DNA of 24,796 bases from a virus: IMG/VR virus record IMGVR_UViG_3300028025_004801, positions 1-24,796 of that record; one strand, given 5' to 3'. Shown piece after piece: positions 1,339-17,500 of this stretch. The translations under genes and the position numbers were made by a program. The notes under the pieces were generated by a model. It searched no databases, was not told the DNA's origin, and saw only the letters and a program-made list of their open reading frames with translations. Every line of letters begins with the position of its first letter. Position 1 is the first letter of the stretch.

Positions 1339-2378
1339 ACCCTCACGCTTGGCATCTCTCCGACCTCTCCTCCGTCCCGCAGAACGGCATCAAGGTCATG
1401 TCCACCTTTGCCTGCGGTGGCGGAAGCTCTATGGGCTACAAGCGCGCCGGTTGCCAGATCGTCGCTGCCAATGACATCGATCCCGAAATGGCATGGCACT
1501 ACAAGCGGAACCTCAACCCGCCGCAATACTACCTTTGCCCCATCCGCGACTTGCTCACGGCAGACTTGCCGCCAGAGCTTTTCGCATTGGACATCCTCGA
1601 CGGATCCCCGCCTTGCTCCACATTCAGCATGGCCGGAAGCCGAGAAAAAGCATGGGGAAAAAAGAAACACTTCCGCGAAGGCCAAGCCTCTCAAGTCCTC
1701 TCCGATTTATTCTTCGACTACCTCGATTTGGTTGAACGCTTAAAGCCCAAAGTCGCCATCGCTGAAAATGTGAAAGGCATGATCCTTGGCAATGCCAAAG
1801 GCTACACCAAGCTCGTCATGGATCGCTTCCGCGAAATCGGATACCGACCGCAACTTTTTCTTTTGAACGCCGCCGACTGCGGAGTGCCACAACGCAGGGA
1901 ACGAGTTTTTTTCTGCGCTCTACGGAATGACATTGCCAAGCCGCTTTTGAAACTTGCGCCCAAGCATCAATGGATTTCAGCAGGCGAGGCAACGAACGAT
2001 TTGCAGGTGCTGACAGAAGAAGAAAAAAAACAAACAAAGCCAACAAAAAGTGATTTACTTTTTTGGCCTAATACAAATCCAGGTGAAAGCCTTTCAGTTG
2101 AATGTATGCGCCAACGAGGGAAAGCATCATTTTTTAATAATTACCGATTGGATTCAAATTCCCCGTCCAATTCTTTGTCTGCAACAAGTTGGGTCATGAC
2201 TCACTGGGATGAATGCCGAACCCTCACCTTCCGCGAATGGAAACGCCTCGGTAGTTTCCCCGACGATTACGAAGCCAAGACCGACAAGATCGGCAAATAC
2301 ATGATCGGCATGAGCGTCCCGCCAAAGATGACAGAGCAAGTCGCCCGCGCTGTGATTGACCAGTGGCTCAAACAATGA
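1335..2378 (+). CDS. C5-cytosine DNA methyltransferase (Dcm family)
   Basis: It should transfer a methyl group from S-adenosylmethionine to C5 of cytosine, most likely protecting phage DNA from host restriction. The C5 motifs are in order: motif I FACGGGSSMGYKRAG (residues 25-39), motif IV with PPCS and catalytic Cys94, motif VI ENV (144-146), motif VIII QRRERVFF (186-193), motif IX LTFREWKRLGSFPDDY (297-312) and motif X IGMSVPP (324-330). It has 347 residues, typical of the family. The target-recognition region (about 220-290) is strongly AT-rich: 35% and 33% GC by hand count at 2041-2100 and 2101-2160, against 57% at 2221-2280. No restriction endonuclease gene is adjacent, so it is a solitary enzyme. 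Both ends overlap neighbours by ATGA. Confidence 0.95.
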   Translation: MNPHAWHLSDLSSVPQNGIKVMSTFACGGGSSMGYKRAGCQIVAANDIDPEMAWHYKRNLNPPQYYLCPIRDLLTADLPPELFALDILDGSPPCSTFSMAGSREKAWGKKKHFREGQASQVLSDLFFDYLDLVERLKPKVAIAENVKGMILGNAKGYTKLVMDRFREIGYRPQLFLLNAADCGVPQRRERVFFCALRNDIAKPLLKLAPKHQWISAGEATNDLQVLTEEEKKQTKPTKSDLLFWPNTNPGESLSVECMRQRGKASFFNNYRLDSNSPSNSLSATSWVMTHWDECRTLTFREWKRLGSFPDDYEAKTDKIGKYMIGMSVPPKMTEQVARAVIDQWLKQ

Positions 2379-4078
2379 CCCCCGCCGCTGAAGCCCTACG
2401 TGAACACCTCCGCTCGATCTACGCACCGATTGACAGGCGCACCGTCACCGAGTGGTGCGCTGACGAGGTGATCCTGAGCGAGCGGCAGACGCAGATGCCC
2501 GGAGCATTTTCGACACGCCTCACGCCCTACCTCCGCGAGCCGCTTGAGTGTTTCGGCGATGTCGATGTCTCCGACCTTGTGCTGGTATTTGGAACGCAGA
2601 CCGGCAAGACGACGATGGTGCAAGCAGGAACGGCCTGGCGTATCGTGAACAAGCCGCAGCCCGTCGTGTGGGTCATGCCCACCGAAGGCCTCGCCCGATC
2701 CTTCTCCGAGACGCGCTGGCTGCCGCTCTTCGACGACAGCGCCACGCTCGCCGCTCAGAAACCCGCAGACCGGCACCGATTCAAAAACCTCGAGCAGCAT
2801 TTTTCGCGGTGCTCGCTCGTTTTCGTCGGCAGCAATTCCCCGGCGAACCTCGCCAGCCGCCCCGCCGGACTCCTGCTGATGGACGAGGTGGACAAATTCG
2901 CCAGGGAGACCGATCAAGAAACCTCCGCGCTTTTCCTCGCAGAGAACCGCACCAAGTCATTCGTCGGCGCGCTTCGCGTTAAGACCAGCACGCCCACCAC
3001 GCCGGACGGCGCGATATGGCAGGAATACCAGAAAGGCACGCAGGAAAAATTCATGCTCGAGTGCCCGCACTGCCACGAGCGCATCGAGCTTTTGTGGGAA
3101 CAGGTGAAGTGGGACACCGACGCGAAAGTGGCCGGCAAGTGGAACATGGCCCGCGTCGAAGAATCCGCGCGCTACATTTGCCAACGCTGCCAAGGCGAGT
3201 GGAACGACGGCCAGAAAATCGAAGCCCTGCAAGACGGCAAGTGGCAGGCCACAAACCACAGCGCCCAGCGAGGCTTTCGCAGCTTCCACCTCAACTCCCT
3301 CTACGCGCCGTGGCGCTCCTGCACCTTCGGCGCGCTCGCCGTGAAATTCCTACGCGACAAAGACACGCTCAACGGCCTCCAAGATTTCACCAACAGCACG
3401 ATGGCCATGCCGTGGGAGCAGGTCGAGACCAGCATCGGCGACGCCAACATTCTCAGCCTGCGCGGCGACTACACGCGCGGCACCTGCCCGATCGAGCCAG
3501 CGCACATCGTCACCTGCGCCGACATCGGCCAAGATAAACAGCACTGGGTCACCGTTGCATTTGATACGACAGGCCAGAGCTTCGTCCTCGACTACGGAAC
3601 CACGCTCACCATCGAAGACCTCCTTGCCGACTCGCCCCGCCGCATTTATCGCACGCCCAGCGGGCAGGAAGTCCGCCCCGAGTGCGGCCTCATGGATTCC
3701 GGCTTCGCCACCTTCCGCGTTTACACCGCCTGCCAAGTCAGCGCCGGATTCTGGCACGCCGCCAAAGGCTCCGGCGCAACCTTCGGCAGCCGCATCGGGC
3801 GCACCGTCATCGACGACTTCCCCGGCGTCGTGCTCTACACCTTCGTGGACCACGCCATAAAGACGGAACTCTTCATCGACCGCATCCGCAACGGCAAGCC
3901 CCCGCTCGCCATCCCACGCGACACGACCGAAGACTTCCTTCGCGGCATGAGCGGCCAGCGCCTCGTTCCCCGCAAGACCGCCACCGGCCAAGAGTTCGTG
4001 TGGAAATCCGTGGCGCAAGATCACTACATGGACGCCGTAAAACTCTGCCATGTCGCCTGGCACATCTTGAAAAACTGA
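2375..4078 (+). CDS. Terminase large subunit (GpA-like ATPase/nuclease)
   Basis: This is the ATP-driven motor that cuts concatemeric DNA and packs it through the portal. With the ATG at 2375, which overlaps the methyltransferase stop, it has 567 residues; a GTG at 2363 is a weaker alternative start. A Walker A-like loop VFGTQTGKTT is at 71-80 and Walker B LLLMDEVDKF at 166-175, followed by a TSTPTT coupling motif near 204-209. A zinc-binding insertion has CPHC (230-233) and CQRC (269-272). The RNase H-like nuclease has candidate metal ligands D383 (CADIGQD), D441 (LMDSG) and D553 (YMDAVK). Length, order of domains and the zinc insertion match the lambda gpA family. Confidence 0.96.
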   Translation: MTPAAEALREHLRSIYAPIDRRTVTEWCADEVILSERQTQMPGAFSTRLTPYLREPLECFGDVDVSDLVLVFGTQTGKTTMVQAGTAWRIVNKPQPVVWVMPTEGLARSFSETRWLPLFDDSATLAAQKPADRHRFKNLEQHFSRCSLVFVGSNSPANLASRPAGLLLMDEVDKFARETDQETSALFLAENRTKSFVGALRVKTSTPTTPDGAIWQEYQKGTQEKFMLECPHCHERIELLWEQVKWDTDAKVAGKWNMARVEESARYICQRCQGEWNDGQKIEALQDGKWQATNHSAQRGFRSFHLNSLYAPWRSCTFGALAVKFLRDKDTLNGLQDFTNSTMAMPWEQVETSIGDANILSLRGDYTRGTCPIEPAHIVTCADIGQDKQHWVTVAFDTTGQSFVLDYGTTLTIEDLLADSPRRIYRTPSGQEVRPECGLMDSGFATFRVYTACQVSAGFWHAAKGSGATFGSRIGRTVIDDFPGVVLYTFVDHAIKTELFIDRIRNGKPPLAIPRDTTEDFLRGMSGQRLVPRKTATGQEFVWKSVAQDHYMDAVKLCHVAWHILKN

Positions 4079-11397: not shown

Positions 11398-11766
11398 ATG
11401 GCCGCAACTCTCTATCGCTCATCCGCAGTATCCACAGCCGAATACGGCACGCCCAATGTCACAGGGCTCATCGTCACTAGCTTCAGCGTCAATGAAACCG
11501 CATCGCTCTCCGAGGTCAAAGATGACCAAGGCTCGATTCTGGCCGTGGCGGTCGCCGAGCCAATCCAAGAAATCTCCATCGAAGGAATGCGCACCGGCAC
11601 CTTCGCCGCTTCGGTCGGCAGCGCGTTGACCATCACGATGCCCGCCTCCGTGGATCTCGGAGCGACGACCATCGTCACCGGCCTCACGAGCAACTTCGCC
11701 GCCGAGCAGTTCGAGACCGTCTCTCTGACCGCCCGCTCTTACCAGACCACGATGACGGCTTCCTAA
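11398..11766 (+). CDS. Major tail tube protein
   Basis: It has 122 residues and is likely the repeated subunit of the non-contractile tail tube. It is rich in Thr, Ser, Val and Ala and looks all-beta: TGLIVTSFSVNETASLSEVKD, GSILAVAVAEPIQEISIEGM, SALTITMPASVDLGATTIVTG. The alternation and the central P-x-x-E-I-S-I-E-G segment are typical of small tube proteins. Its place between the terminator-type protein and the assembly chaperones agrees. The special leader, and a strong hairpin 12 bases downstream, fit a high-expression gene. Confidence 0.7.
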   Translation: MAATLYRSSAVSTAEYGTPNVTGLIVTSFSVNETASLSEVKDDQGSILAVAVAEPIQEISIEGMRTGTFAASVGSALTITMPASVDLGATTIVTGLTSNFAAEQFETVSLTARSYQTTMTAS

Positions 11767-11825: not shown

Positions 11826-12230
11826 ATGACGACAAAACCTCTCGCTGTATTCAGCACCCGCGACCTCAAGCTCGCCACGATCCTGCTAACGCTCGGCTTC
11901 GAACCTGAGAACCCCGCCGCTCCCGCCACGCGCATTCGCCGCGATTCCGGCGACGAGACGACCGTCTTCCACTTCCTCGCCAATCACCCGACCTCCGGCC
12001 AGCAGGCCAACCAGGTCATGGAGTGGTTCCGCGACGCCGACATTTTCCTCGAGAAAAACCCCGAGCATCCCGTCGCCTACATCCTCGCCGCTCTCCGCAA
12101 CCGCGACACCCTCGTCTCGGTCGTCAAAGCCACCCCGCGCCAACTCGTCTTCGAGCGCAACGGGAAAATCGTCTCGATCTCCGAGAACGCCACCGAAGCC
12201 GACAAGAAGCGCTTCGCCAAATTTCTATGA
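11826..12230 (+). CDS. Tail-region protein before the assembly chaperone (DUF5659-like start)
   Basis: It has 134 residues. The first 30 residues (LAVFSTRDLKLATILLTLGFEPEN) have the F-x-T-x-D-L-x-L-A-x-x-L pattern I associate with DUF5659, small phage proteins of unknown role. The centre is helical (NQVMEWFRDADIFLEKNPEHPVAYILAALRNRDTLVSVVK). It overlaps the next gene by ATGA at 12227-12230. Position between tail tube and tape measure suggests a part in tail assembly. Confidence 0.55.
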   Translation: MTTKPLAVFSTRDLKLATILLTLGFEPENPAAPATRIRRDSGDETTVFHFLANHPTSGQQANQVMEWFRDADIFLEKNPEHPVAYILAALRNRDTLVSVVKATPRQLVFERNGKIVSISENATEADKKRFAKFL

Positions 12231-12643
12231 AAAAAAACAACGACAAATCCACCACGAACGAAACCCTCGAAACCGACGACGAAGTCCTGCGCGAGCAGGC
12301 CATGCGCGACGGCACGAAGCGCGTCGGCAAGTTCAAGCTCCGCCCCTGCGTCCCCGGCACCATCTCCATCATCCGCTCAAACCTCCTCGAGAAGCGCGAT
12401 GAGTTTTGGTTCGTCGCCGCCTTCGCATTCGTCCACACCGCGCCGATCGAGGACATCCTCGCCGTGGACAGCGACCCCGAGGAATTCAACCGCGCCGTCC
12501 GCCGCTGGCAGCTCGAGAACATCGCCGACCTCGACGATCAAAACGAACTCTCCAAGCTCGTCTCCGCCGCCTGGGATCGCGTGAACGCCGCCGAGACCAA
12601 GGCCAAGAACCCCTCCACCGGAAGCCCCACCTCGGGGGAGTAG
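12227..12643 (+). CDS. Tail assembly chaperone, G-type
   Basis: It has 138 residues and is expected to keep the tape measure protein soluble while the tail tube assembles. After a polar N-terminus (MKKNNDKSTTNETLETDD), the core is KLRPCVPGTISIIRSNLLEKRDEFWFVAAFAFVHTAPIEDIL, then EEFNRAVRRWQLENIADLDDQNELSKLV, resembling gpG-type proteins. The reading frame ends with GGG GAG TAG (12635-12643), and an overlapping -1 frame continues with a T-type domain. The start overlaps the upstream stop by ATGA. Confidence 0.7.
   Translation: MKKNNDKSTTNETLETDDEVLREQAMRDGTKRVGKFKLRPCVPGTISIIRSNLLEKRDEFWFVAAFAFVHTAPIEDILAVDSDPEEFNRAVRRWQLENIADLDDQNELSKLVSAAWDRVNAAETKAKNPSTGSPTSGE
12634..12640 (+). promoter_or_regulatory. 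Candidate -1 ribosomal frameshift site (GGGGGAG)
   Basis: The zero frame reads TCG GGG GAG TAG. A tRNA on GGG (12635-12637) can slip back to GGG (12634-12636) and continue GGA GTA GCA, avoiding the stop. It is not a perfect heptamer but is close to the lambda G-rich site (GGGAAAG). Confidence 0.55.
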
Positions 12644-12864
12644 CATCCCCCAACTGGCTCGCCTCTTATGTCTACCGATTGGCCAGCATCACCGGTTGGG
12701 GGTTCCAAGCCTGCATGTGGGAAGTCCCCTTTGCTGCCGGGCTCCAAATCCTGGACGCCGATTCATTCAGCCGCGGCGTGCCTCGCCTATATCTGCGCCG
12801 CAACCCGAACGCGGATTTTGACTCCCTCGCCGCAATAGAAAGCGCCTTCGCAAAAATCACATGA
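12637..12864 (+). CDS. T-type extension of the tail assembly chaperone, read by -1 frameshift
   Basis: The frame encodes about 75 residues starting GVASPNWLASYVYRL, with GWGFQACMWEVPFAAGLQILDAD and RGVPRLYLRRN. The W-x-x-P/V-F/L-A-x-x-L-Q pattern is typical of the C-terminal domain of long tail chaperones. Within this domain there is no plausible start: the first ATG is deep in the conserved part, and only weak TTG codons come earlier. A fusion through 12634-12640 would give about 212 residues. As in lambda G/GT, a small fraction of ribosomes would make the long form, which recruits the tape measure protein. The stop overlaps the next start (ATGA). Confidence 0.65.
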   Translation, partial: GVASPNWLASYVYRLASITGWGFQACMWEVPFAAGLQILDADSFSRGVPRLYLRRNPNADFDSLAAIESAFAKIT

Positions 12865-13682
12865 GCTCGGCATCCATAGAAATCGAAAGCACAGGTCTTG
12901 AAGACATGTTTCGCTTCTATGGTGAGGTGAAAGGAAAGTCTCTCCCTGACACGCTTCGCATCCATGCGCGCTTGCTGTGCGTGGAACTCGCTCGCCGGAC
13001 TCAGCCCTTTGGCACTGACGACAAAGTCGGCAAAGCGGCAGTTGCCAGAGACCTCTTGGGTGGCAAAAAGAGATATGGTCTCTTTGCGCCCATCACGGAC
13101 TTTCTAGCTGAGAACTCCGAGCCCTACGGCTCTGGCAACATTCGGCTTTTTGTAAAAAAAGACGGCACGGTTTACGGCACCGATAAAGCGCACTTCCGCC
13201 AATTTGCCACCCTCGGATCGATGCGGGCCATCCACAAAAAAGCCTATCAAAACGGCAGGATGTCATCAGCCGGGTCAGGCACCCGAGACATCGGAAGGTG
13301 GAAATTCATCGATAAGTATTTCGTCCCTGCCAGCACGCTCAATGAGTATGTCGCACTTCAGCAAGCCAAGGTGGGCCTTGCAAAATCCGGCTGGGCGGCC
13401 TGTGCCAAGAAGATCAAAAAGACAACAAGCGGAAGTGCCACACGCGGCATCCCTCGCTGGGTCACGCGTCAGCTCGGCGATTACGATTTCGGCATCGTCG
13501 AAGACAACGCGGACGACCTCAAGAACCCGCGAATCAAGCTCACCAACACAATCAAATATGCCGACAAGGCATGCCGTGAGTCTGAGCGCGATGTCGCCGT
13601 GGTTACCGTCGTTCAGAAAATGATCAAACAACTTGGCAACATGCTCCGCTACGAGCGCAAACAACTTCAGAAAGCTGCCTGA
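12861..13682 (+). CDS. Unknown tail-region protein between chaperone and tape measure
   Basis: It has 273 residues. No motif of a known enzyme is visible. It contains a segment LLCVELARRTQPFGTDDKVGKAAVARDLLG, then AHFRQFATLGSMRAIHKKAYQNGRM, and a basic C-terminal helix (MIKQLGNMLRYERKQLQKAA). Lambda has no gene here, so this is an extra gene in the tail module; some other siphophages carry a tail completion or minor tail protein at this position. The base composition is a little less GC-rich than the neighbours, consistent with later acquisition. It starts in an ATGA overlap and ends three bases before the tape measure gene. Confidence 0.6.
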   Translation: MSSASIEIESTGLEDMFRFYGEVKGKSLPDTLRIHARLLCVELARRTQPFGTDDKVGKAAVARDLLGGKKRYGLFAPITDFLAENSEPYGSGNIRLFVKKDGTVYGTDKAHFRQFATLGSMRAIHKKAYQNGRMSSAGSGTRDIGRWKFIDKYFVPASTLNEYVALQQAKVGLAKSGWAACAKKIKKTTSGSATRGIPRWVTRQLGDYDFGIVEDNADDLKNPRIKLTNTIKYADKACRESERDVAVVTVVQKMIKQLGNMLRYERKQLQKAA

Positions 13683-13685
13683 CCT

Positions 13686-15872
13686 ATGGCCGACGCAACA
13701 GTCACATTCGCCGCCAAAGACCTGAACCTCGGGTCCACTATCGACAAACTCAAAAAGGAACTCGGCGCCACGCAGGATGCCGCCAAAAACGCCTCCAAAG
13801 GCTTCGACCTCTCTTTCGGCAAGATCGGCGCCGCTGCCGCTGTCGCCGGCGCAGCCGTGAAGGTCGGCATGATGGCCGTCGAGGCCGCCACGGCCGGAGC
13901 TCGTGCGGTCGTGGATGGTTTCGGTCAAGCCATCGATCTCGGCGGCAAGCTCAACGATCTTTCCTCCCGCACTGGAGAATCTGCGGGGAATCTCCTCGTT
14001 CTCCAGCGCGCCTTTGAAAACACCGGCGTCAGTGGCGACAAGGTCGGCACCAGCATCAACAAACTTCAAAAGTTCATGGCGGAAGCCGCTGCCGGGGGCG
14101 CGGAGCAATCGGCCACAATGAGCGCCCTTGGGATTTCCATGAAGGACTTGGAAGGCAAGACCCCGACGGAGCAAATGCAGGTTTTCGCAAAGCAGATCGC
14201 CGGCATTTCCGATCCCGCCGAGCGCGCCCGCGCCGCAATGGAAGTTTTCGGAAAATCGGGCGGCGAGCTTTTACCCATGCTCAACAATTTCGCTGGCGAG
14301 ATCGATGGAGCCAAAGGCCAACTCGGCAGCTTGCCGGGCGTGATGGACCGCAGCGCCTCCGCCATGGATTCCCTCGGTGACAACTTTTCAGCCATCAAAA
14401 ACAAGACGATGGAATTCGCCGCCGGGTTCCTCGAGTCCGCCCTGCCCGCGCTGAATGCTTTCACGACTTCGCTGACCGGCGTCGATGCCGCTGGCTGGGG
14501 GCAGAAACTCATGAGCCAGGTGATGAGTGTTGCGGATTTCCTCATCGGTGCGTTTCAAGCCCCCATGCCAGCCATCGAGGCTCTCGGCGCAGCACTCATC
14601 GCTGGCGTCAAGACCGCTGGTAACAACTACCTCAACGCCCTCATCGATGCAGGCAAGTTCCTTTCCGCCTTTTTCTCCAGCGACCTACCGGGTATCATCT
14701 CGGGAGTCCTCGGCAATACGCTCATCAAGGCTTTTGTGGATTCTGCCAAGGCATTCATCGATGCCATCCGAGGCGTCATTACCGCTTTCGAGACCTGGCT
14801 AGGCTCCGCCATTTCGAATGTTGTGGATTTTTTCACGACCAAATTCTTGGGCGTCCTCAGCGCGGTGGCGCAGGATTTCCAATCCGCGATGTCCGACCCG
14901 ATTGGATTCGTGACCGGCAAGCTCGACAGCGCGCTCGCCGGGGTGATGAACAATGGCGGAAACACTTTTCAGACATCCTTTGAAAAAGCCGGTGGCTCCG
15001 CACTCGACAAGATCAGCGCCGGGCTCGGTGCGGTCTCCGACGAATATGGCGCGAAGATCGTGGACGGATCCATCCGCGCCAAAGATGAATTCGGCAAGCT
15101 CGTGGACAGCCTCGACAAGAGCGACAAGGACTTCTTCGGCGCGAAGGACTCCATGAGCGTGGCCTCCGAGAAATTGGCCACCGTCACCGAGTCCGGTAAG
15201 AAACTCCGCGAAGAGTTTGAGAAATCTGCCACATCGGCCGACGCCGCCAACAAGAGCACCTCTGGCGCGGTCACAGATGCCGAATCTATCGCAGGCTCTT
15301 TCGACAAAGTCGCAGGCTCCGCCGCGAAGGCCAAAGAAGAACTCTCCGAATCCGCCAAGCTCTTCAAAGCCATCGAAGAAGCCCGAGCCAAAGACGCCAC
15401 GGACCCCGGCGGCCGCGACACCAAGCGCGCCCAGGACGCCATCGGCAAAGGCAACTTCTCTGCCGCCGAGCGTGCTGCCAACCGCATCGCCGCCCGCGAA
15501 GAGCGCCAAGGCCGCCAAGCCGGAGAGAAACAAGCCGCCGAGGCCGAGGCCGCCAAGCCCTTAAGCCAGCGCATGGCCGAAGGCACCCAAACCCTCCGCG
15601 CCCGCTTCGCCAAATCCGACAAGCCTGCTGCCGACCAGCCCGCCACCGAAAAACCCAAATCCTTCCGCGAGCGCATAGCCGAAGGCACGCAATCCTTCCG
15701 CGACCGAATGGCCGGCAGTGATGCCGTGGACAAACCCGGCCAATCCGGCCAGACCGACACCGCCGCCCGAGGTGGTGACAAAGCCAAGTCCTCCCTCGAT
15801 ACCCTCGTCGGCGACATCAAAAAACTCCTCGAAAAAATCGAACCGCGCCTCCCCGTCGCCGCACTCGTATGA
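13686..15872 (+). CDS. Tape measure protein
   Basis: This elongated protein fills the tail tube and sets tail length. It has 728 residues, which at about 0.15 nm per residue predicts a tail near 110 nm. The N-terminal region has a long helix and an Ala/Gly-rich segment (IGAAAAVAGAAVKVGMMAVEAA, about 38-60), followed by LGGKLNDLSSRTGESAGNLLVLQRAFENTGV and AGISDPAERARAAMEVFGKSGGELLPML, both typical of tape measure proteins. Hydrophobic stretches lie around 275-350. The C-terminal quarter is very charged and holds an imperfect repeat: QRMAEGTQTLRARFA (about 627-641) and ERIAEGTQSFRDRMA (about 661-675). It overlaps the next gene by ATGA. Confidence 0.9.
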   Translation: MADATVTFAAKDLNLGSTIDKLKKELGATQDAAKNASKGFDLSFGKIGAAAAVAGAAVKVGMMAVEAATAGARAVVDGFGQAIDLGGKLNDLSSRTGESAGNLLVLQRAFENTGVSGDKVGTSINKLQKFMAEAAAGGAEQSATMSALGISMKDLEGKTPTEQMQVFAKQIAGISDPAERARAAMEVFGKSGGELLPMLNNFAGEIDGAKGQLGSLPGVMDRSASAMDSLGDNFSAIKNKTMEFAAGFLESALPALNAFTTSLTGVDAAGWGQKLMSQVMSVADFLIGAFQAPMPAIEALGAALIAGVKTAGNNYLNALIDAGKFLSAFFSSDLPGIISGVLGNTLIKAFVDSAKAFIDAIRGVITAFETWLGSAISNVVDFFTTKFLGVLSAVAQDFQSAMSDPIGFVTGKLDSALAGVMNNGGNTFQTSFEKAGGSALDKISAGLGAVSDEYGAKIVDGSIRAKDEFGKLVDSLDKSDKDFFGAKDSMSVASEKLATVTESGKKLREEFEKSATSADAANKSTSGAVTDAESIAGSFDKVAGSAAKAKEELSESAKLFKAIEEARAKDATDPGGRDTKRAQDAIGKGNFSAAERAANRIAAREERQGRQAGEKQAAEAEAAKPLSQRMAEGTQTLRARFAKSDKPAADQPATEKPKSFRERIAEGTQSFRDRMAGSDAVDKPGQSGQTDTAARGGDKAKSSLDTLVGDIKKLLEKIEPRLPVAALV

Positions 15873-16477
15873 CCATCTACTCTGCCAGACCTTTTCCTCT
15901 CCAAATCCGCGAGTCCATGACGACTCGGTTCTCGGGCTTGATCGAATATTCTGCGACTTTTCTTATCGATAAAGGAGCCAGTGCAGCATTCGCCGTCGGT
16001 GCGGTGATAGCCACCACCCTCGGCAGCGTTTCGATTTTCCCTGGAGTCAGATATGTGCGCAATAATGACAGTCCCTTTGACGAGGTAGAGCTAACCGCCT
16101 ACGGCAAAGGCTTCGCTCTTGGCACCCGCGTTGTCTTTGGCACCGAGGTCTTGGAGTTGTCTAAAACCTTCGAGCACATTGACGCAACGCAGAATCCTCC
16201 AGTCACGACCACCTGGACCGTTTACGAGACATGGCGCTGTGAGACGGCGACCAAGCACAATGTTTTAAGTAACGATTCGTCATCTTATTCCGACCCGTCG
16301 AATTCATTGGATAAACAAATGATTCGCCGGTGGATCATCGGTCAGGTCGCCCTATCTTCGGGTCGGGATAGTCTGAACATCGGCTGGAATACTGGCCGCC
16401 GCGATGTTCAGCGCACGAACTTCGGCGCCTGGGATGAGGTGGCCGTGATGAAAGGCTACATTCCGGAGGTCTCATGA
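15869..16477 (+). CDS. Minor tail protein, unknown
   Basis: It has 202 residues and starts in the ATGA overlap after the tape measure gene, where distal-tail proteins are expected. It looks beta-rich at first (SGLIEYSATFLIDKGASAAFAVGAVIATTLGSVSIFPGV), then has GKGFALGTRVVFGTEVLELSKTF and ends with NFGAWDEVAVMKGYIPEVS. No catalytic motif, signal or coiled coil was found. A tail tip or distal tail component is likely from position only. Confidence 0.6.
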   Translation: MTIYSARPFPLQIRESMTTRFSGLIEYSATFLIDKGASAAFAVGAVIATTLGSVSIFPGVRYVRNNDSPFDEVELTAYGKGFALGTRVVFGTEVLELSKTFEHIDATQNPPVTTTWTVYETWRCETATKHNVLSNDSSSYSDPSNSLDKQMIRRWIIGQVALSSGRDSLNIGWNTGRRDVQRTNFGAWDEVAVMKGYIPEVS

Positions 16478-16773
16478 ATTTCCCTGTCGATTTTGAGCAA
16501 AAAGCCCAAGCCTCGCGATCAGCGAGTGGCGGCGGGTATCCCGCGCAGATCCGCGCCGCCGACCTCATGGCGAACTTTGCTTATGCCGCTCTGGATGCCA
16601 AGAGCGTCGTGCAAGGTTCGCCGCAGCCCTTCTCGACCACGCAGGAAAATCGCGGCGGCACGAAGACCGTGCGAATGCTCACCTTCAACCCCCCGCCTCC
16701 GACCGACGGCAAAACCTATGTTTTCGCTTTCTCGGGTGGGGCGTTCAAGTGGCTGCCGACAGAGGAATGCTAA
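16474..16773 (+). CDS. Small tail protein, unknown
   Basis: It has 99 residues. It begins MNFPVDFEQKAQASRSASGGG and has a C-terminal half that seems beta-rich (TKTVRMLTFNPPPPTDGKTYVFAFSGGAFKWLPTEEC). The final FSGGAFKWLP segment resembles the short strands seen in tail-fibre and baseplate proteins. It overlaps the upstream gene by ATGA and the next short frame by TAATG. The function is unknown. Confidence 0.6.
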   Translation: MNFPVDFEQKAQASRSASGGGYPAQIRAADLMANFAYAALDAKSVVQGSPQPFSTTQENRGGTKTVRMLTFNPPPPTDGKTYVFAFSGGAFKWLPTEEC

Positions 16774-16868
16774 TGCAAACACGGAAACCTGAAACCGGAA
16801 ACCTGAGACCGGAAAACTGCCCCGCCTTTCAAGTTTCAAGTTTCACATTTCACCCTTTTCTCCCATGA
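16773..16868 (+). CDS. 31-residue bridging frame made of simple repeats
   Basis: The frame starts in TAATG at the upstream stop and ends in ATGA at the next start, reading MQTRKPETGNLRPENCPAF and on to FHPFLP. It is built from GAAACC-type repeats. It may simply carry ribosomes from one gene to the next, since no Shine-Dalgarno precedes the ATG at 16865. A stable protein product is doubtful. Confidence 0.3.
   Translation: MQTRKPETGNLRPENCPAFQVSSFTFHPFLP
16784..16844. repeat. GAAACCTGAAAC / GTTTCAAGTTTC imperfect inverted repeat
   Basis: GAAACCTGAAAC (16784-16795) pairs with GTTTCAAGTTTC (16833-16844), with one G-T pair. Direct repeats of CCTGAAACCGGAAA and CCTGAGACCGGAAA lie between. It resembles simple-sequence extragenic repeats. 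Confidence 0.7.
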
Positions 16869-17500
16869 CCCTCGGCCGCACATCCTCAGGAGCCATCAAG
16901 ATCAAATCCGACGGCGGCCTTCGCGCTGTGAATTGCGCGTGTTGTAACCCGTGTGGGTGCTATCAAATTTCGATTCCGCTCGAATTGCGTCCACTTTTTG
17001 AAAACGCGAACCTTTCAAACCTATCAGCATTCGGGGTTCCAGCGGCTTTCTTTGGATATTTAAAAGCTGAATTTATCGGAGGAATTGAAAACGATGTTTG
17101 GTATGCGGACTTTACATACAATTTGCCATACATTTTTCCAATATCTTACTTAGGCATGGGGATTTTTTACCAGAAATCAACAGGATGCTTGGGGATGGGT
17201 TCCGGCGCGCCTTCTCCTCACTACATCGAAGGTTATGGGCCGGGAGTCATTTATGACTACGATCCGGGCTTAGTGCCTGAAGCTACTCTTGCCGCCGGAG
17301 ATGGAAACTCATGTTTTACTTTAGGATATCTGGGATCGTCCGTCGGGTGCTCTGAGCCTGAATTTCAGCCAAATCCTCAAGCTGATACATTTACAATAAA
17401 TGGATCGGGGTCATTTCCGTTTTGGTATTATTCTACTGATACGAGTGTTGATTCCTGCGCGGGAACACCGTTCCCTCCGTTAAACATAGTTTTGACATGA
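16865..17500 (+). CDS. Cys-rich minor tail protein, unknown
   Basis: It has 211 residues. The N-terminus has IKIKSDGGLRAVNCACCNPCGC, a dense Cys cluster that may bind metal or form disulfides. The remainder is rich in Gly, Tyr, Pro and Phe (YFPISYLGMGIFYQK-like stretches, PSPHYIEGYGPGVIYDYDPG) and looks extracellular or structural. The middle is clearly AT-rich (35% GC at 17041-17100 and 37% at 17101-17160 by hand count), unlike the flanking genes, which suggests recent acquisition. I associate this kind of Cys-rich protein with phages of Verrucomicrobiota, but cannot confirm it. Confidence 0.65.
   Translation: MTLGRTSSGAIKIKSDGGLRAVNCACCNPCGCYQISIPLELRPLFENANLSNLSAFGVPAAFFGYLKAEFIGGIENDVWYADFTYNLPYIFPISYLGMGIFYQKSTGCLGMGSGAPSPHYIEGYGPGVIYDYDPGLVPEATLAAGDGNSCFTLGYLGSSVGCSEPEFQPNPQADTFTINGSGSFPFWYYSTDTSVDSCAGTPFPPLNIVLT

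Follow-up and report, generated by a model that had tools for sequence, protein, structure and literature searches.

The slippery heptamer of the lambda G/GT tail assembly chaperone gene is G_GGA_AAG. In lambda, both G and GT attach to the tape measure protein, the tail shaft subunit is recognised by T, and the molar ratio is 30:1 (PMC5009743). Frameshifting reached 6% and 7% in two phage chaperone genes assayed in other work (PMC3711429). In actinophages, roughly a thousand motifs of the 'fivetwo' type are all reported to be the G-rich heptamer GGGGGAA (PMC10885494), and the PRFect authors proposed G:U pairing, which lets all positions of GGGGGAA pair (PMC10885494). The annotation of corynephage phi16 includes a putative GGGGGAA site (PMC5506516), and we found GGGGGAA in phase in the overlap of the joined chaperone gene of Arthrobacter phage Andrew, the phase being computed by hand from the coordinates.

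In this study, we analysed a stretch of DNA of 24,796 bases (the window), a single virus contig that carries the structural region of a tailed phage. We propose, with a probability of roughly 0.92, that it holds a two-frame tail assembly chaperone gene expressed via programmed -1 ribosomal frameshifting. Two overlapping frames, the second shifted by -1, lie upstream of the tape measure gene with one ORF between. The features of the region are as follows.

1335-2378, C-5 cytosine DNA methylase ORF, overlapping the terminase ORF
2363-4078, terminase large subunit ORF
from 6734, portal
from 8218, Clp-type head protease
from 9378, major head protein
12227-12643, + strand, G-type ORF of 138 aa, its ATG overlapping the stop of the preceding ORF (ATGA)
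12640-12864, + strand, T-type domain in the -1 frame, 74 aa from the Val after the putative slip, plus TGA
12861-13682, + strand, 273-aa ORF between T and the tape measure gene, its ATG overlapping the T stop (ATGA)
13686-15872, + strand, tape measure protein, the expected G/GT partner, matching PHROG tape-measure families (best named one 1.3e-15)

Small ORFs lie between the major head protein and the G-type ORF; the two nearest to G, at 11398 and 11826, were tested and had no assigned family, and the 273-aa ORF at 12861-13682 had no family match either. A 14-nt tandem repeat, AAACCGGAAACCTG, was present in three copies at 16777-16819, between the ORFs 16474-16773 and 16865-17500. The locus resembles lambda G/GT in the -1 direction, the site at the 3' end of G, the short G with a long GT and the position upstream of the tape measure gene, whereas its heptamer is GGGGGAG and the 273-aa ORF separates T from the tape measure gene. 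It shares with the actinophage GGGGGAA sites the G_GGG_GAR geometry, the same P-site re-pairing and a Glu-to-GGA step with a second-position G.U, but the last base is A there and G here. The elements around the predicted slip site are listed below.

12620-12624, + strand, purine-rich stretch GGAAG, some 10 nt before the heptamer, a possible internal Shine-Dalgarno-like stimulator
12634-12640, + strand, variant slippery heptamer GGGGGAG, read as G_GGG_GAG in the G frame and GGG_GGA in the -1 frame
12641-12643, + strand, G-frame stop TAG, adjoining the heptamer
12644-12646, + strand, remainder, after TAG, of TAG CAT, the 6 nt that separate the heptamer from the stem
12647-12657, + strand, 5' stem arm CCCCCAACTGG
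12692-12702, + strand, 3' stem arm CCGGTTGGGGG, after a 34-nt loop

The last codons of the G frame are TCG GGG GAG TAG, and the -1 frame reads GGG GGA GTA GCA TCC CCC AAC TGG across the site, staying open from the slip for 74 further residues to the TGA at 12862-12864. GGGGGAG occurs a single time on the + strand of the window; it has the XXX of the tandem-slippage pattern X_XXY_YYZ but lacks the YYY. The predicted products are G (138 aa, 15.6 kDa) and GT (212 aa, 23.7 kDa). As far as 120 nt beyond the G stop, the T frame of the window has only three start codons, TTG at -235 and at +38 and ATG at +74, counted from that stop, and no start codon before +29 was kept across the T frame of the relatives, in a comparison that omitted 4 loci as too short. 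The preliminary description had ended the G-type frame at 12643, left the T-type frame with no usable start and seen in GGGGGAG, just before the stop, room for slippage on GGG. These points agree with the TAG at 12641-12643 that ends the ORF 12227-12643, with the three starts above, none conserved before +29, and with the G_GGG_GAG phase confirmed at 12634-12640. It had also named residue 137 of the fusion as the one for a peptide to span, which needs a small correction: G has 138 residues, and Gly137 is the last residue common to both slip models considered below.

We scanned viral contigs for relatives and obtained 55 loci with G and, for T, the best 80 of 82 relatives; removal of duplicates left 70 distinct windows with both frames. 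In 70/70 of these, T lay in the -1 frame relative to G, and the heptamer was directly followed by the stop. An ATGA start candidate for G was found in 69/70, and the other, L017, reaches the contig end. We grouped the windows into three sets according to their heptamer: A, the window plus 14 more, with GGGGGAG TAG (15); B, with GGGAAAG TAG (26); and C, with GGGAAAC TAA (29). The identity of G to that of the window was 89-100% in A, 67-78% in B and 33-47% in C, and the heptamer sorted with it without exception over the 70 windows. To call the heptamer invariant within a clade would be circular, because the clades are named by it; the sorting by G identity and a tree built without the heptamer are independent of the naming. 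In this tree, which also left out the stem columns and used C as the outgroup, A (support 0.835) and B (0.927) formed separate clades. The 273-aa ORF lay downstream of T in 13/15 A, 25/26 B and 21/29 C representative loci, and contig ends may account for some of the misses.

We then considered a wider set of 329 loci, for which one scan kept the best 80 of 166 relatives. Without the 33 loci that had no T match at E <= 1e-6 and the 9 too near a contig end, 287 loci remained, which represent 102 distinct windows. The site alignment in relatives that the preliminary description had suggested was thus run, and the heptamer was flush against the G stop in 101/102 windows, 86 of them with a strict XXXYYYZ. 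The tally was GGGAAAC 54, GGGAAAG 27, GGGGGAG 15, AAAAAAC 5 and one gapped contig (L305), and the 54 GGGAAAC were followed by TAA (50), TGA (2) or TAG (2). Outside the GGGGGAG windows, GGGAAAG, GGGAAAC or AAAAAAC stood at the homologous place in 86/87, which bears out the view of the preliminary description that the heptamer of the window is a non-standard variant. The slip-site residues were spelled by one of two search patterns in one wider scan and by one of six in the T scan, the genome-contig scan and another wider scan; another wider scan required TAG at the stop position plus the 5' stem arm. Counts by stop and heptamer are therefore no fair census, because the patterns favoured the site, TAG and the stem arm. 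The contig L305 has no sequence between the stem arms and loses the frame at this point, as though assembly or replication had jumped over the hairpin; GGGAAAC TAA is still present. The sole relative from genome contigs, a contig (L137) of a Verrucomicrobia MAG, carries GGGAAAG TAG, and the host of the phage may perhaps be a Verrucomicrobia-like bacterium.

The heptamer of clade B, the sister of the window's clade, is the GGGAAAG of lambda, and its presence at the homologous place means that GGGGGAG looks derived. A GGGAAAG ancestor for A and B would take fewer base changes than a GGGGGAG ancestor, and the intermediates GGGGAAG and GGGAGAG were absent from the 102 windows. The phage lineage seems to have given up the common slip sequence in favour of an unusual, G-rich heptamer, and in contrast to the actinophages with GGGGGAA, it appears to descend from the canonical GGGAAAG. 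AAAAAAC TAG was found at the same site as GGGAAAG or GGGAAAC in five more distant relatives (L242, L246, L274, L297 and L298), indicating that the heptamer changed at least twice in this family. We consider it somewhat probable that the lineage replaced GGGAAAG by GGGGGAG, that the new site works via a second-position G.U or via a P-site-only slip, and that it was kept throughout the sampled clade. The second-position G.U was possibly aided by a wobble gain in the step from GAG to GGA, and the switch was perhaps tuned to a feature of the host tRNA-Glu or tRNA-Gly.

Three alignments (A1, A2 and A3) took in 33, 49 and 41 of the 70 distinct windows, hand-picked for diversity. To assess selection on the two frames, we counted variable columns in each clade. 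The T region varied at T-frame positions 1, 2 and 3 in 13, 7 and 33 columns in A, 30, 22 and 57 in B and 16, 11 and 47 in C (each of 71), a pattern of protein-coding selection on the T frame in all three clades. The codon-aligned G frame of clade B varied in 32, 24 and 66 of 69 columns at positions 1, 2 and 3. Before the site, 1/71 aligned G codons was invariant in this clade, and the heptamer and stop were identical in 26/26. In clade A, the Gly and Glu codons were GGG and GAG in 15/15 though free to vary synonymously, which is moderate evidence alone because 27/70 preceding codons were invariant too. The T frame is open for at least 103 nt upstream of the G stop in every member of A, and in one clade B member, L044, it opens only 10 nt before the stop, so entry there lies within the stretch that holds the heptamer. 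Over the shared 103 nt, all 15 clade A windows had three in-phase XXX triplets, at 31, 16 and 7 nt before the stop, and those at 31 and 16 nt are CCC. With Watson-Crick or G.U pairs allowed and simple wobble assumed, the final 103 nt of G offered just one in-phase position at which the two tRNAs could both re-pair, GGGGGAG (15/15 A). Because the two CCC sites occur in 15/15, P-site slippage elsewhere is compatible with the sequence alone.

An 11-bp inverted repeat starts 6 nt after the heptamer, and RNAalifold, run on 33 windows, predicted exactly this 11-bp helix. The results showed that 98.0% of the stem cells were paired and that the stem covariation score was 0.219, compared with 0.120 in shuffles (0/500 reach 0.219) and at most 0.093 in slid versions. 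Two of the five covariation measures were not above shuffles, and related sequences inflate such scores: stem pairs changed on both sides (2) showed no excess (377/500 shuffles as high), nor did further pair types in the stem (5; 500/500 as high). The closing pair over the 70 windows was CG in 13 and GC in 2 of A; CG in 19, GC in 4, CA in 2 and GU in 1 of B; and GC in all 29 of C. In A and B, the switch between C-G and G-C combines a swap of the Ser codons TCC and AGC on one side with a change of a third-position base on the other, and protein sequence therefore does not explain it. On the tree, the closing-pair state took 8 parsimony changes, with the two less usual states counted. Windows with at least one non-pair in the stem numbered 9/26 in B, 0/15 in A and 0/29 in C. 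The fold energy of the window was ordinary against dinucleotide shuffles (z -0.35), and that against synonymous codon shuffles was modest (mean z -1.5 in A, -1.2 in B and -1.3 in C). A conserved protein motif explains part of the arm conservation. By its alignment signal this is a covarying stem at stimulator distance, which the earlier reader did not report. For a pseudoknot of the 34-nt loop with downstream sequence, we found no conserved 6-bp pairing, the weakest pair of the best candidate being kept in 51% of the 70 windows.

We also searched upstream of the heptamer with the SD-like pattern of Sharma and colleagues (PMC4066793) as a strict criterion, the 6-17 nt gap being counted by our own reading. 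It was present in 8/15 A, 10/26 B and 27/29 C, against a background at other G-frame places of 0.11 in A, 0.13 in B and 0.04 in C, and the window itself had no match. This is suggestive of an upstream SD-like element acting as a stimulator in part of the relatives. The signals of bacterial IS and dnaX, as described in PMC4066793, resemble those of the window's family in the heptamer, the short-spaced stem and the partial upstream SD-like stretch; they differ in lying in different genes, and the strict SD-like pattern, found in just over half of clade A, is absent from the window.

From these features, we infer that ribosomes slip at the heptamer, give the two products in some ratio and do so by tandem rather than P-site-only slippage, and that the products serve tail assembly. 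Most ribosomes would halt at the TAG at 12641 and yield G of 138 aa, and a minority, held by the stem 6 nt downstream, would slip back one base. In a tandem slip, the Gly-tRNA on GGG and the Glu-tRNA on GAG would re-pair on GGG and GGA, and the slipped ribosomes would read to 12864 and yield GT of 212 aa. The junction would be TSGEVASPNW, with Glu at residue 138, and the peptide NPSTGSPTSGEVASPNWLASYVYR would mark a slip after GAG is decoded. Under simple pairing rules, the P-site step from GGG to GGG leaves pairing unchanged, and the A-site step from GAG to GGA keeps the pairs at positions 1 and 3 with a G.U at position 2. A thermodynamic study of dnaX found a change of the A-site wobble pair from G.S to A.S favourable and reportedly never altered second positions (PMC6787027). 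Because that wobble change was favourable, GAG, compared with GAA, may partly compensate, its wobble gain offsetting the loss at position 2 if the host tRNA-Glu is modified alike. By analogy with lambda, G would coat the tape measure protein and the T part of GT would recruit the tail tube subunit. The lambda G/GT-type mechanism that the preliminary description had put forward appears well supported by the -1 relation in every distinct window, the conserved site and the covarying stem.

The tandem slip has one less probable competitor, in which only the Gly-tRNA moves from GGG to GGG with the A site empty and GGA is then read as Gly, giving the junction TSGGVASPNW, Gly at residue 138 and the peptide NPSTGSPTSGGVASPNWLASYVYR. 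Its pairing is unchanged, whereas the Glu-tRNA on GGA needs a second-position G.U. The heptamers that the relatives retain nevertheless let both tRNAs re-pair in the -1 frame, and the two CCC sites of clade A (15/15) would serve a P-site-only slip as well, while the stop-flush site is the homologue of the canonical heptamers. In addition, the second codon had already been decoded when the dnaX variant A4G slipped, and the other route supplied only about 5% of its frameshift peptide (PMC6787027); the G:U argument of the PRFect authors for GGGGGAA (PMC10885494) applies to every position. We therefore regard a P-site-only slip as unlikely and prefer the tandem slip.

Explanations in which no ribosome changes frame were rejected as the main one. 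If T were a separate protein made by reinitiation or an internal start, the ATG at +74, found in all 15 A and 26 B windows, or the TTG at +38 of three A windows could serve; a start at +74 would, however, remove about 27 conserved T residues, that codon is CTC in 21, TTG in 6 and CTT in 2 of the 29 C windows, and the conserved heptamer and stem would be left unexplained. The T frame of L044 also opens too close to the G stop to suit it, at only 10 nt, and no sigma-70-like promoter, the one type sought, was found in 12000-13700. A separate T is very improbable on this evidence. About as improbable is transcriptional slippage, in which one G is added to the G run and the frames are joined in the mRNA: the window has a five-G run, as do all 15 clade A windows, but the longest run at the site is only three in 12/26 B and 25/29 C, the covarying stem is kept at ribosomal spacing, and five G is short next to the A runs over 7 and T runs over 8 cited in PMC3711429. 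A one-base sequencing error can yield two adjacent frames in one contig, so an indel or a broken gene with T as the remnant of a single-frame gene was weighed too; with the same frame relation in 70/70 distinct windows and coding selection on T in three clades, it is the least credible of all. Programmed -1 frameshifting of the ribosome thus stands as our reading.

We searched for homologues of the two domains by sequence and fold. No sequence homology of G or T to lambda G or T was detected; neither had a significant match to a known chaperone family in Pfam or PHROGs, and G had none among PDB sequences. Among 50,697 phage records, Andrew included, no named relative was found at E up to 1 for G and up to 5 for T. 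The predicted models were moderate for G (pLDDT 71.5) and poor for T (56.0), and Foldseek with the G model against the PDB gave none at E <= 0.001 (best 4.4). Because homology to lambda G and T is not demonstrable by sequence, nor by fold for G, the labels 'G-type' and 'T-type' were assigned from location, size, relative frame and signal, and with no homology found, the probable role in tail assembly follows from position, frame relation and signal. A single-frame protein of 206 aa, gp18 of Verrucomicrobia phage P8625 (L138:3708-4328), adjoins the tape measure gene and looks by eye only like G-linker-T; kinship is not claimed, because hhalign probabilities were below 1%.

The mechanism and its location have long been known, and only the heptamer switch is unusual. 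GGGGGAG as a phage slippery site was not found in the open-access papers searched, the main survey (Xu and others 2004) being outside that search, and we do not claim it as unreported. Our results extend the conserved tail-chaperone frameshift to a family of environmental phages that none of the protein libraries searched recognised, and annotation that seeks only XXXYYYZ would miss GT in clade A. The family offers matched natural sites, GGGAAAG, GGGAAAC and GGGGGAG, before one homologous stem. Because the dnaX variants reported in PMC6787027 all kept second codon positions unchanged on shifting, this set would allow the cost of an A-site second-position G.U to be measured. If true, the heptamer switch would be a natural experiment on a slip class outside the published dnaX free-energy data.
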